A program made the position numbers and the translations under genes. From Bacteroidota bacterium (lineage in GTDB: Bacteria > Bacteroidota > Ignavibacteria > Kapaibacteriales > UBA2268), in assembly GCA_021780815.1 (NCBI GenBank), contig JAJXYC010000003.1, forward strand, positions 62,001-126,000: a stretch of 64,000 bases of DNA, given 5' to 3'. The notes beneath the pieces were generated by a model. The model was not told where the DNA came from. It did not search any database and saw nothing but the letters and a program-made list of their open reading frames with translations. Numbering within the stretch: the stretch's first letter is position 1; every line of letters begins with the position of its first letter. Below, piece after piece: positions 2,637 through 10,837 of this stretch.

Positions 2637-3146
2637 ATGGATTTAAATTACTTGCGTAGATTAGTTAAAATATTTGATGATAGCACTCTTGACGATTTAG
2701 TCATTGAAGAAGAAGGCACAAAAATTAAATTCTCCCGGAAACCACAAAATGCTTCAAAATATGAATATCCTTTAATCCAAAACGATGCAGCCTTAGGGAT
2801 TAACCAAGTATTTCCAATTTCAACTACGGAAAAGTTAATCCCAAAAATTGAACATCACGAAACAAAAACAGAAACACAAATTTCTAAGAGCGAAGATACG
2901 ATCGGACTTGTAGAAGTTCTTTCGCCTATGGTGGGAACTTTCTATCGGGCACCTTCACCAGAAGCCCAACCTTTTGTTGAAGTTGGAAAGCATGTTACAA
3001 AAGGGCAAGTTGTTTGTATTATAGAAGCTATGAAATTGATGAATCAAATTGAAAGTGAAATTAATGGTGTTATTGAGAAGATTTTAATTGATAATGCTAA
3101 ACCTGTTGAATTTGGTCAACCCTTGTTTCTAGTGAAACCTGAATAA
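2637..3146 (+). CDS. accB: Acetyl-CoA carboxylase biotin carboxyl carrier protein
   Basis: A 169-residue carrier of the covalently bound biotin that shuttles CO2 from biotin carboxylase to the carboxyltransferase in malonyl-CoA synthesis. The biotinyl domain fills the C-terminal 80 residues: [23 protein letters not shown] is the typical AccB thumb-containing segment, and EAMKLMN holds the biotinylated lysine (K133). The N-terminus ([28 protein letters not shown]) is the usual dimer-forming part, and a flexible Glu/Lys/Thr-rich linker joins the two. A GGAG lies about 8 bases before the ATG. accC follows after 13 bases, so the two are an operon. No carboxyltransferase gene is beside them. Confidence 0.95.
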
Positions 3147-3159
3147 ATCACGAGGTAGT

Positions 3160-4506
3160 ATGTTTCATAAAATTTTAATTGCGAATCGTGGTGAAATTGC
3201 ATTAAGAATTATTCGTGCCGCAAAAGAATTAGGAATTAAAACAGTTGCTGTATATTCCGAAGCAGATAGATATTCTTTGCACGTCCGTTTTGCAGATGAA
3301 GCTATTTGTATTGGTCCTCCATCATCAAAACAAAGCTATTTAAATATTCCTGCTTTAATTACTGCTGCTAATATTACAAATGTTGATGCTATACATCCTG
3401 GATATGGGTTTTTAGCCGAAAATCAAATTTTTGCTGAAATATGCCAAGGGCATGGTATTACTTTTATTGGACCTAATCCTTCGTCTATTAGCCAAATGGG
3501 AGATAAAGCGGTTGCGAAAGATACTATGAAAAAAGCAGGTGTACCTGTTGTTCCAGGAAGCGACGGAGTTGTTTCAAATCTTGAACAAGCAATTAAAATT
3601 GCTGATAATATTGGATACCCACTTATGTTAAAGGCGGTAGCTGGTGGGGGCGGTAAAGGTATGAGAATTGTTAATAACAAAAGTGAACTTGAAAAAGTTT
3701 TTGAAGTTACACAAAGCGAAGCATTAGCCTTTTTTAATAATCCTGATTTATACATTGAAAAATTAATCCCTAATGCTAAACATATTGAAATACAAGTTTT
3801 TGGAGATAAACACGGCAACTATATTCATCTAAATGAACGTGAATGTTCAATGCAACGGAGACATCAGAAATTAATTGAAGAAACTCCTTCTTTTGCTGTA
3901 AATCAAGCACTTAGAGATGAGATGGGGAGTATTTCTCGACAAGGGGCTAAATCTGTTAATTATGTTGGACCCGGTACTATTGAATACTTACTTACTTCCG
4001 ACGGCAAATATTATTTTATGGAAATGAATACTCGTATTCAAGTGGAACATCCTATAACAGAAGAATCTTTAAAAATCGACCTGGTCAAAGAACAAATTAA
4101 AGTTGCCGCAGGTGAAAAACTTTCTTTAAAAGAGCATCAACCTATTTTTCATTCTATTGAATGTAGAATTAACGCCGAAGACCCATTTAATGATTTTAGA
4201 CCTTCACCAGGGAAAATTGAAGGCTTCCATTGTCCCGGTGGACAAGGTATCCGAGTAGACACTCATTTATATCAAGGATACGTTATTCCTCCTTATTATG
4301 ATTCTTTGCTGGCAAAAGTTATTACTTATGCAAGAACAAGGGAAGACGCTATTAATAAAATGAAACTTGCCCTAGATGAATTGATTATTGAGGGAATTAA
4401 AACAACTATCCCTTTCCATGTTGCTATGATGAACAATCCTGACTTTGTTAATGGCAAAATCGATACAAAATATTTAGAAAGAGTCAATTGGAAAGATTTT
4501 ATTTAA
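3160..4506 (+). CDS. accC: Acetyl-CoA carboxylase, biotin carboxylase subunit
   Basis: This 448-residue cytoplasmic ATP-grasp enzyme carboxylates the biotin on AccB using ATP and bicarbonate. It has the N-terminal pre-ATP-grasp domain ([33 protein letters not shown], residues about 4-36), the glycine-rich ATP loop [11 protein letters not shown], the metal and catalytic segment [15 protein letters not shown], and the C-terminal [17 protein letters not shown] segment. Length matches stand-alone AccC (about 450), not the longer fused acyl-CoA carboxylases. It follows accB by 13 bases with a GAGG upstream of its ATG. Confidence 0.96.
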
Positions 4507-6051: not shown

Positions 6052-6134
6052 CAAAAAATAGTATTTTGATAAATACGTAAATATAAATGTAGAATGAAAG
6101 AATTTGGTTAATTTTGACAAAATTTAATAATAAA

Positions 6135-7085
6135 ATGCAAAAAATAAAAGCAAAACCATTTTTAAAGTGGGCAGGCGGTAAAGGACAATTAATTAGTCAA
6201 TTTCAAGAATACTATCCCAAAGATTTGTATTTAAAGAAAATTGATAAATATATTGAGCCATTTATCGGTGGCGGTGCGATATTTTTTGATATAATGCAAA
6301 ATTACAAAATTAATTCGGCTTATATTTCCGACATAAATAAAGATTTAGTATTAGCTTACAAAGTAATTCAACAAAAGCCTGAAATGCTTTGTGATTTTTT
6401 GGAACAATTTCAAAATAATTACGATAATACAATTCAGGACGATAGAAATAATTTGTTTTTATCAATTCGTAAACATTTCAATGCACAAAGATTTGAGATA
6501 AATTACAAACAATTATCTGAAAATTGGATATCAAGGGCAGCACAATTAATTTTTTTGAATAAAACATGTTTTAACGGTTTATATCGCTTAAACTCAAAAG
6601 GTGAATTTAATGTTCCTTACGGTAAGTATCCAAACCCAACGATTTTAGATAGTGAGAATATTTTTGCAGTTTCTAAACTTTTACAAAACGTGGAAATAAG
6701 AAACGCAAATTATAGTGAATGTTTTAATGAAACAACTTCTAATTCATTCATATATTTTGATCCGTCATATAAGCCGATTAGTAAAACAGCAGGTTTTACA
6801 ACTTACACAGGGACAGAATTTACAGATAAAGAACAAATAGAATTAGCAAATTTTTATCGTAACCTTGATATTGAAAAACAAGCAAAATTAATGTTAAGTA
6901 ATTCATATCCAAAAAATGAAAACCCGTCAGATGAATTTTTTGAAACTGTTTTTAAAGATTATAATTTGCATAGAGTAAACGCTTCACGAGCAATAAACTG
7001 TAACGGTGAAAAGCGTGGAAAAATTAAAGAATTAGTAATAACAAATTATAAATATGAACCACAAACCTTGGCAATCAATATTTGA
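6135..7085 (+). CDS. D12-class (Dam/DpnM-like) adenine-N6 DNA methyltransferase
   Basis: This enzyme methylates adenine in a short DNA site using S-adenosylmethionine. It has the alpha-class order: KPFLKWAGGKGQL (AdoMet binding, motif X), IEPFIGGGAIFFD (motif I), then SFIYFDPSYKPISKTAGFTTYTG (motif IV) and a target-recognition part in between. The relatives of DpnM and MboI methylases carry DPPY followed by RPLSKT-type residues; here the catalytic motif reads DPSY. GATC is therefore a likely site, by family only. I take ATG 6135 (316 residues); an in-frame TTG at 6114 would add seven. The next gene overlaps its end by 32 bases, which suggests coupled expression with the partner endonuclease. 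Confidence 0.88.
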   Translation: MQKIKAKPFLKWAGGKGQLISQFQEYYPKDLYLKKIDKYIEPFIGGGAIFFDIMQNYKINSAYISDINKDLVLAYKVIQQKPEMLCDFLEQFQNNYDNTIQDDRNNLFLSIRKHFNAQRFEINYKQLSENWISRAAQLIFLNKTCFNGLYRLNSKGEFNVPYGKYPNPTILDSENIFAVSKLLQNVEIRNANYSECFNETTSNSFIYFDPSYKPISKTAGFTTYTGTEFTDKEQIELANFYRNLDIEKQAKLMLSNSYPKNENPSDEFFETVFKDYNLHRVNASRAINCNGEKRGKIKELVITNYKYEPQTLAINI

Positions 7086-7815
7086 CACACATAAAATCAA
7101 CAAACACGATTTTAATAAAAATCCGTTTATTCTTACAGCCGAACAAATTAAAACAGATACAGCACATTTCAAAACTACAAATGAAAGAGAAGTTCGTGTT
7201 CTATGCAAACAAGATATACGCGAAGATAGACCAAATATTTTTATCGAAAACGGATTATTTTTGTTACCAATTAAAAATGGAACATATGCAATAATCGAAG
7301 GTGAAGGGTATGTCGATATTCCTGAAATAACAACGACATCTAAGATTTACAAATCAAAACTTGATTTTCACCTTGATACATCGCAAATAGGAAATTCAGA
7401 AATGCAACATCTTGATTTTGCTTACGCTTCAAGTTTGATAAGAACATTTTTAAAAGACGATAGTTTAGTTTTAACAATTCGTGGCAGAAAATATACACCA
7501 AAATTTGAATTTAATGTTGGTAAACACTTAATTTCAACAGAAAGTGTGCAAACAGAAGTTGATGCAGGATATGAAGGCAGAAATCAAGTAGCATTGATAG
7601 AAGCCAAAAATTCAATAAGCAAAAATGTTATAATTCGGCAATTGTATTATCCATTTAGACAGTGGCAAATTCACACAACAAAAAAAGTTAATACTTTATT
7701 CTTTGAAAAACAAGGAAATACATATAATTTGTATCACTTTGTTTTTAACAATAAATTGGATTACAACAGTATAGAATTAAAAAATAGTTGTAAATACGAG
7801 ATAAAGAATAATTGA
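7054..7815 (+). CDS. Probable type II restriction endonuclease (PD-(D/E)XK type), partner of the Dam-like methylase
   Basis: A 253-residue protein whose ATG lies inside the end of the methylase gene. The central segment VQTEVDAGYEGRNQVALIEAKN (about residues 168-189) places an Asp 14 residues ahead of an E-A-K, the layout of a PD-(D/E)XK nuclease core; K/R-rich helix and YYPFRQW follow. The first 100 residues carry a small beta-rich part with a GTYAIIEGEGYVDIP segment. It is not recognisably the DpnII or MboI endonuclease type. Function is inferred from position and this motif. If the methylase acts on GATC, this would be an unfamiliar endonuclease for that site. No transmembrane or signal segment is visible. 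Confidence 0.65.
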   Translation: MNHKPWQSIFDTHKINKHDFNKNPFILTAEQIKTDTAHFKTTNEREVRVLCKQDIREDRPNIFIENGLFLLPIKNGTYAIIEGEGYVDIPEITTTSKIYKSKLDFHLDTSQIGNSEMQHLDFAYASSLIRTFLKDDSLVLTIRGRKYTPKFEFNVGKHLISTESVQTEVDAGYEGRNQVALIEAKNSISKNVIIRQLYYPFRQWQIHTTKKVNTLFFEKQGNTYNLYHFVFNNKLDYNSIELKNSCKYEIKNN

Positions 7816-8555: not shown

Positions 8556-10031
8556 ATGAAACATAAAACACTTGGACAAGTATTTACACCTGATTGGATT
8601 GTAAATGAAATATTAAATTCTTTAAATTATAAAGAAGATTTTATTTTAAACAAAAAAATTATTGATCCAGCCTGTGGAGATGGAGTTTTTTTGAAAATTA
8701 TTGTAGAAAGAATGATTGATTATTTTTTATCAAAAAATTATTCTGCATCTGAAATTAAAAAGCATATAGAAAATAATGTTTATGGAATTGAAATTGATGA
8801 AGTAGAATTTAAAAATTGTATAACTAGTTTGAATAATTTAATCAAAAATAAATTTAACAAAGATTTAAATATTGATTGGAAAATATATAAAGATAATACT
8901 TTATTAAAGTATAAAGATTTTTTAGGTTTTTTTGATTATGTAGTCGGAAATCCTCCATATATCAGAATCCATAATTTAGATAAGGAAACAAGGAATTTAC
9001 TTAAAAAAGATTTTATTTTTTCAGAAGGAACGATAGATATTTATGTTTCATTTTTTGAATTGGGCTTTAAATTATTAAATAAAAATGGTCAATTAGGATA
9101 TATCACGCCTAATAGTTATTTACATAATTCTTCTTACAAACAATTTAGAAAATATTTAAAAGATAATAAAATAATTAAGAGCATAACAGATTTTAAGGCA
9201 AATAAAATCTTTAAAAACTTTTCTACCTATACAGCAATAACAATCGTTAATTTTTATGACAAAAATAAATCTTTTATTTATAAAGAATTGAAAAAAGATA
9301 AAATTCAAAAGGTAAATGAAATAGATTATAATGATGTAAATGATAAGGACTGGTCTTTTTCTAGCAAAGAAGATATGGCTTTTCTAAAAAAACTATATTC
9401 AAACACAAATAAAAAAGTTTCAGATTTTTTTGATGTACAATATGGTTTTGCAACTTTAAGAGATAAAATTTATATTGGCGAGATTTTAGAGGAAAAAAAT
9501 AATTTAGTTTTATTTAATAATTACTGGATAGAAAAAGAAATATTATATAAAATTGTTAAAGGTTCTACCTATAAAGGAACGGAAAAAGAAATAAAATATA
9601 TAATATTTCCATATAAAAACGAATTTTCTCGTTATATTCCAATTCCAGAAAAAGAATTAAAAGATAAATATCCCAAAACATATAAATATTTATTAGATAA
9701 TAAAGAAGAATTATTAAAAAGAGACATCGACAAAGGTTCAGATTGGTATGAATTTGGTAGAAGTCAAGGTATTCAAACTTCTCATAATGAAAAGATTATT
9801 TTGAGTACTCTCGTTAAGCACGCAATACTTTTTTACAAAGTAGATAAAAATATTCTTGTATATTCTGGAATATTTATTATTAAAAAGAGAAAAGAAACAA
9901 ATTGGGATATTATTACTAACATTTTAAAATCAGATGATTTTTATCAATATATACAAATTACTGGAAAAGATTTTTCTGGTGGCTATAAATCAATAACAAG
10001 CAATCAGATTAAGAATTATCCAACAACTTAG
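8556..10031 (+). CDS. TaqI-like adenine-N6 DNA methyltransferase
   Basis: A 491-residue gamma-class methylase. It has TLGQVFTPDWIVNEIL (motif X region, residues 5-20), IIDPACGDGVFLKI (motif I), YGIEID (motif II) and VVGNPPYIRI (motif IV with catalytic NPPY near residue 131), followed by a long C-terminal region with the TaqI-type specificity domain features (YIIFPYKNEFSRYIPIPE, then WYEFGRSQG). The last part of the protein (GKDFSGGYKSITSNQIKNYPTT) is a usual end for this family, so it looks complete. The endonuclease partner begins 41 bases later but is interrupted. The gene is markedly AT- and Lys/Asn-rich, in line with a mobile origin. Confidence 0.9.
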   Translation: MKHKTLGQVFTPDWIVNEILNSLNYKEDFILNKKIIDPACGDGVFLKIIVERMIDYFLSKNYSASEIKKHIENNVYGIEIDEVEFKNCITSLNNLIKNKFNKDLNIDWKIYKDNTLLKYKDFLGFFDYVVGNPPYIRIHNLDKETRNLLKKDFIFSEGTIDIYVSFFELGFKLLNKNGQLGYITPNSYLHNSSYKQFRKYLKDNKIIKSITDFKANKIFKNFSTYTAITIVNFYDKNKSFIYKELKKDKIQKVNEIDYNDVNDKDWSFSSKEDMAFLKKLYSNTNKKVSDFFDVQYGFATLRDKIYIGEILEEKNNLVLFNNYWIEKEILYKIVKGSTYKGTEKEIKYIIFPYKNEFSRYIPIPEKELKDKYPKTYKYLLDNKEELLKRDIDKGSDWYEFGRSQGIQTSHNEKIILSTLVKHAILFYKVDKNILVYSGIFIIKKRKETNWDIITNILKSDDFYQYIQITGKDFSGGYKSITSNQIKNYPTT

Positions 10032-10072
10032 GATAACGATCAAAAAACTTTATTTAATTAACAGGCAAAAAT

Positions 10073-10837
10073 ATGATAAAAGAAAAATTCATCAAAAGTT
10101 TAGAGGAAGGCTACAAAAATTATCTTTTAGTTCATGCTAGAAGTTCATCTAAAATAATTCCTATGCACAAATGTCTTTCTGAAATTTTAAAAGAAAAACT
10201 TGGAAAAGATTTTGTCATTAAATCTATGGGTATTGGTGATAATAAGGAATATAAATTTAAAGGAAAATATTATACTAAAGACTTAGATATAACAATTTTG
10301 AAAGATAATAAACCAATATCTGCTCTTGGTTTTAAGTTTGTTACTTCAAACTATAAACAAAATTCTAATAATTATTTTGAAAACATGCTTGGTGAAACAG
10401 CAAATGTTAAAAGAAATGATTTACTATATGGGCAAATATTGATTTTAAAAGAGCAAATGCCTCATTTTAGCACTGATAAAAAACAATTTACTAAAGTTGA
10501 AAAAATCAATGAACTAAATTAAAAAAAATATTTTAGATTAGGAACAGACAATACAGAAAATTTATATCACAAACCTGATATTATATTTATTTCTTTTGTA
10601 GAAACAGGGGATGAAGAAAGAATGTTGAAGGCCGTTGTCAATAAAGAAAAAATATCTAAAACAGAATTTAACAAAAATGAACTAGCTCCATTGGTAAAAT
10701 TAAAGTTTTTAAATACACAGGATTTAAAAGAAAAATTTACAGATGAAATGAAAGATTTTTTAATAAAAAATGGTAATTTTGATGAATTTATCGAAGCTTT
10801 TGTTAATCTAACAAGAGGAAGAACTTATGGAAAATAA
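10073..10837 (+). pseudogene. Type II restriction endonuclease interrupted by an in-frame TAA
   Basis: One reading frame runs from ATG 10073 to TAA 10835-10837 (254 codons), broken only by TAA at 10520-10522 (codon 150). Before the stop: KDLDITILKDNKPISALGFKFVTSNYKQNSNN and YFENMLGETANVKRND, the core of a PD-(D/E)XK-type endonuclease (D70/D72, K88). After it, in the same frame: KKYFRLGTDNTENLYHKPD, then IIFISFVETGDEERM and an end at RTYGK. The continuity across the stop, with sensible protein on both sides, argues for a point nonsense change (for example from TTA or AAA) rather than two genes. A 71-codon piece from ATG 10622 could be translated alone but lacks the catalytic part. The gene follows the TaqI-like methylase by 41 bases. 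Confidence 0.75.

Follow-up and report, generated by a model that had tools for sequence, protein, structure and literature searches.

An in-frame stop codon interrupts the endonuclease gene beside a full-length TaqI-class methyltransferase in a Bacteroidota genome

The 64,000-nucleotide stretch of Bacteroidota DNA analysed here (the window) carries a gene for a TaqI-class adenine methyltransferase, followed by an endonuclease gene that is interrupted once, and directly upstream of this pair lies a separate system of the Dam/DpnII type (Table 1). The endonuclease open reading frame starts at ATG 10073 and is closed after 149 codons by TAA 10520-10522. Past this stop the frame runs on unchanged for 104 sense codons, as far as TAA 10835-10837, which gives a gene of 254 codons if codon 150 is taken to be the inner TAA. 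The chance of meeting 103 further open codons in a random frame at 23% G+C is about 5e-5. The first start codon 3' of the inner TAA is ATG 10622, at codon 184, which opens an ORF of 71 codons. The statement in the preliminary description that the frame is the same on either side of the stop was therefore borne out by the ORF coordinates (10073-10837).

Table 1. Features of the interrupted restriction-modification pair and of the system directly upstream.
Feature	Position	Strand	Evidence
Dam/DpnII-type adenine methyltransferase, separate neighbouring system	6114..7085	+	TIGR00571 8e-79; MethyltransfD12 9e-55
Full-length Type II endonuclease, DUF6996/DUF6997, probable partner of the Dam-type enzyme	7054..7815	+	PF22518 1e-50; PF22515 1e-21; PADLOC REase_II 1.6e-33
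N6-adenine DNA methyltransferase, TaqI/BseCI (Eco57I-like, gamma) class, full length, DPACGDG + NPPY	8556..10031	+	Pfam Eco57I 6e-26; PADLOC MTase_II 8e-90; BseCI 1.4e-14 and TaqI 3e-4 (solved structures); dN/dS 0.145 vs L009
Type II restriction endonuclease gene, 254 codons, one interruption	10073..10837	+	Continuous homology to intact relatives of 221-265 aa; joined model pLDDT 93.9; methyltransferase adjoining in nearly every evaluable locus
N-terminal part, predicted 149 aa product, with D72, K88, E103, E108	10073..10519	+	81% identity to L009, dN/dS 0.075
In-frame TAA, codon 150; TTA (Leu) in L009, ATT (Ile) in L010 and L011	10520..10522	+	Codon alignment; column across 47 relatives
C-terminal part, 104 codons, expected to be untranslated, with invariant K152, Y153, D159, H166, P168	10523..10834	+	No accelerated change relative to L009

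The methyltransferase frame is open over its full length of 491 aa. Its catalytic domain, with the DPACGDG and NPPY motifs, is shared with the M.BseCI/M.TaqI class, but the similarity to BseCI (the best match among solved structures) and to TaqI (a weak match) is confined to this domain, while the solved adenine-specific methyltransferase 7lni/8cxz aligned with it over almost the full length (1e-10). The two genes of the Dam/DpnII-type system overlap by 32 bases. As this upstream system is full length, the host cell, to judge from its genes, probably still restricts foreign DNA. Two queries of the genome's own assembly of 20 contigs returned a single match to the interrupted endonuclease and no second copy. 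The four other species of the genus were found to be missing both the endonuclease and the methyltransferase, which fits acquisition of the pair by horizontal transfer. No relatives of the endonuclease were found in plasmids, phages or viral contigs.

Searching the genome collection with the N-terminal half of the endonuclease gave at least 155 loci with a related gene, from bacteria and also some archaea; 80 of these were kept, and six further loci lie within the order. Where the flank is long enough, the gene almost always has a TaqI-type adenine methyltransferase next to it; exceptions are L053 and L057, which have no methyltransferase within 4 kb and are possible remnants of whole-system loss. 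Reassortment of partners within the family is indicated by two loci, L010, in which the endonuclease is 59% identical to that of the window and the methyltransferase 37%, and L028, in which the methyltransferase is 72% identical and the endonuclease 38%, although endonuclease and methyltransferase identities still correlate overall at 0.86.

For the endonuclease family, the models of Pfam, NCBIfam and PADLOC yielded nothing beyond a scatter of hits that were below threshold or confined to a single member, a profile search of solved structures (PDB) gave no match, and a fold search with the endonuclease model returned nothing at E <= 0.001. Near the top of the fold list stood the PD-(D/E)XK enzymes EcoT38I, BspD6I small subunit and BstEII, at E 0.01-0.2 and TM of about 0.2-0.3, none of them significant. 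Given that no fold match reached significance, it is chiefly the conserved pairing with a methyltransferase that supports the assignment as a nuclease. D72 and K88 are conserved on neighbouring strands and the invariant E103 and E108 lie on the next helix. These residues form a possible active site, and they suggest a variant of the PD-(D/E)XK type whose acidic residue has been relocated. The canonical (D/E)xK motif was not found in the aligned relatives, which have G, S, A or a similar residue two positions ahead of K88 (GFK, SFK, AVK). Endonucleases of the NgoMIV/Cfr10I/Bse634I type are PD-(D/E)XK enzymes in which the acidic residue is relocated. The present family resembles them in lacking the usual acidic residue two positions before the lysine, but differs from them in matching no solved structure by sequence.

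Relatives were then aligned across the site of the stop. The closest, L009, has a single open frame of 259 residues with a matching methyltransferase (72%) upstream; its label as Parcubacteria is uncertain, since its contig is of 6.4 kb. Identity to the window endonuclease is unbroken across codon 150 in L009 (81% in the N half, 61% in the C half), in L010 (68% and 49%) and in L011 (62% and 41%). Each side of the stop thus matches the same full-length relatives, in agreement with the initial view that both sides belong to one endonuclease. The column at codon 150 holds Leu in 26 of the 47 aligned relatives, Ile in 13, Val in 5, Ser in 2 and Ala in 1. That 44 of the 47 carry Leu, Ile or Val at the stop site supports the earlier proposal of a point nonsense change beside an intact methylase.

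A natural end at codon 149 was seen in none of the 81 evaluable relatives, that is, those not cut by a contig end. Setting aside contig-end and broken genes, the relatives have 221-265 residues. Homologues ending at codon 149 and followed by a separate downstream gene had been named as the arrangement that would speak against a split gene, and neither feature was found in the relatives. The greater conservation of the N half might be taken to mean that the 149-residue form is a natural gene and a functional short protein, with the remainder open by chance. However, homology to relatives extends over the whole of the C half, and the intact relatives are all longer, so that this reading is already contradicted and is scarcely credible.

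The age of the stop was assessed by comparison with L009. The dN/dS values were 0.075 for the N half, 0.28 for the C half and 0.145 for the methyltransferase, all of them rough because substitutions at synonymous sites have nearly reached saturation. Lower conservation of the C half is also seen when L009 is compared with the outgroups. Relative-rate counts (window v L009) were, with L010 as outgroup, 10 v 11 for the N half and 10 v 9 for the C half and, with L011, 9 v 11 and 10 v 6, respectively. No second lesion was found in the endonuclease frame (10073-10837). Since the C half has been changing no faster than that of L009, the stop at codon 150 is recent, or it is not real.

In the latter case the TAA would be a consensus error or the result of strain mixture, the endonuclease of the population being intact and the stop an assembly artefact or a minor allele. 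The codon-150 substitution turns TTTAAAAAAA into TTAAAAAAAA, a one-base change at a T/A homopolymer junction (T3A7 to T2A8), which is an error-prone site, and the gene is free of other decay. Errors do exist in metagenome-assembled genes, as the frameshifted methyltransferases of L042 and L086 indicate, and Ershova et al. cite a resequencing of Brucella by which 109 of 138 reported frameshift or stop cases were removed as errors (PMC3488263). Against this, a clean in-frame substitution is rarer as an error than an indel, the genome is 99% complete and 0.25% contaminated in 20 contigs, and the interruption is the sole strong one of its kind in 166 kb of contig. In a codon-usage scan over this length, no second same-frame pair combined strong coding signal both before and after the stop with a long start-less stretch beyond it. 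Apart from a few short, weak stretches that stay unexplained, the remaining high-scoring pairs have a start 1-8 codons after the stop and resemble tandem genes of the usual kind. An error or mixture is thus unlikely, though it retains a real chance, and we consider it very probable that a recent point nonsense mutation inactivated the endonuclease and left the methylase as an orphan.

Conservation and predicted structure both bear on what such a mutation would remove. The 47 other sequences share 30 invariant columns, of which the window keeps 29, its one departure being His for Tyr at 131; five of the invariant residues (K152, Y153, D159, H166 and P168) lie 3' of the stop. The joined protein, with the TAA read as Leu, was modelled at a pLDDT of 93.9 and a pTM of 0.91. 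In this model the stop falls inside helix 147-158, beyond which come a beta strand (170-177) and four more helices. With the strand, the four helices and the five family-invariant residues lost, the 149-residue product is expected to be inactive. Reassembly of two separately translated chains into an active enzyme, which had been put forward as an alternative, would have to draw its second chain from the 71-codon ORF. The start of that ORF, ATG 10622, lies within a predicted helix, however, and no relative is organised in this way. As the first start after the TAA is codon 184, residues 150-183, with all five invariant positions and the strand, would be absent from both chains. The two-chain proposal accordingly found no support, and we regard it as extremely improbable.

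The other alternative of the preliminary description was stop readthrough. On this reading a leaky UAA would yield a tiny dose of full-length endonuclease and could act as a translational throttle on the restriction enzyme. Relative to L009, constraint on the downstream frame has not loosened, as would be predicted for a frame in use, but the same lack of decay is explained by a recent mutation. No UUA anticodon or suppressor was found among the 40 tRNA genes, which thus include none for UAA. TAA is also the most frequent stop in the window, where it ends 21 of the 30 open stretches that reach 200 codons or more. The stop at codon 150 is kept in no relative, and the other stops of the family are of other types and at unrelated codons: an in-frame TGA at codon 113 in L007, which also has Val for the otherwise invariant E108, an in-frame TAG at codon 47 in L044, and a TAG at codon 163 together with a frameshift in L008. 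Each of these three endonucleases adjoins a full-length methyltransferase. The differing positions and stop codons point to independent loss and not to a conserved recoding signal, and readthrough, being unsupported by tRNA complement or stop usage, is very improbable. Two further routes to a full-length product were rejected. Slippage during transcription of the A8 run would leave the TAA in place, since the T of the stop lies ahead of the run, and because the frame is identical on both sides, any frameshifting would have to amount to a net shift of zero.

Other breaks in the family comprise frameshifted endonucleases in L041, L053 and L057 and methyltransferases broken by frameshift at two loci, L042 and L086; these two breaks may be errors. 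In L042 the frameshifted methyltransferase (~2781-3990) stands beside an intact endonuclease, a combination that is expected to be harmful or lethal, and the break is probably an assembly error; some of the other breaks in relatives are probably errors too. Lesions were counted in 6 of 81 endonucleases and 2 of 71 methyltransferases (rough length-corrected p of about 0.03-0.05, using an approximate codon share), an excess that is suggestive only, as some breaks are likely assembly errors.

With a recent nonsense mutation as the preferred reading, the history of the locus may be outlined as follows. A Type II pair, methyltransferase then endonuclease on the same strand, would have been acquired by horizontal transfer, after which a single substitution in the endonuclease gene would have changed a Leu codon to TAA at codon 150; the direction of this change, from sense to stop, is suggested by the sequences of the relatives. 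Translation would then stop after 149 residues, within helix 147-158, with loss of the nuclease activity, and the full-length methyltransferase would keep methylating its own site as an orphan.

The locus is a case of ordinary restriction-modification decay, known in kind and seen at an early stage. It resembles the orphan or solitary-methylase Type II systems described previously (PMC4176335, PMC3488263, PMC9465063) in that a full-length methyltransferase stands beside a cognate endonuclease broken by a premature stop, and loss of a restriction subunit through a premature stop while methylation persists has been reported (PMC9465063). It differs from them in that a single substitution without further decay appears to have been caught early. 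From their work on pan-genomes, Oliveira et al. contend that solitary methylase genes rarely arise by decay in place (PMC4176335), and this lends the present case a modest value. The endonuclease family is widespread and has no convincing model in any protein-family library searched. For annotators the locus (8556-10837) carries a caution, in that it should not be listed as an active defence system; it would instead represent a restriction-modification system just after the loss of its endonuclease in place, a step inferred from pan-genomes to be an uncommon source of solitary methylases (PMC4176335).
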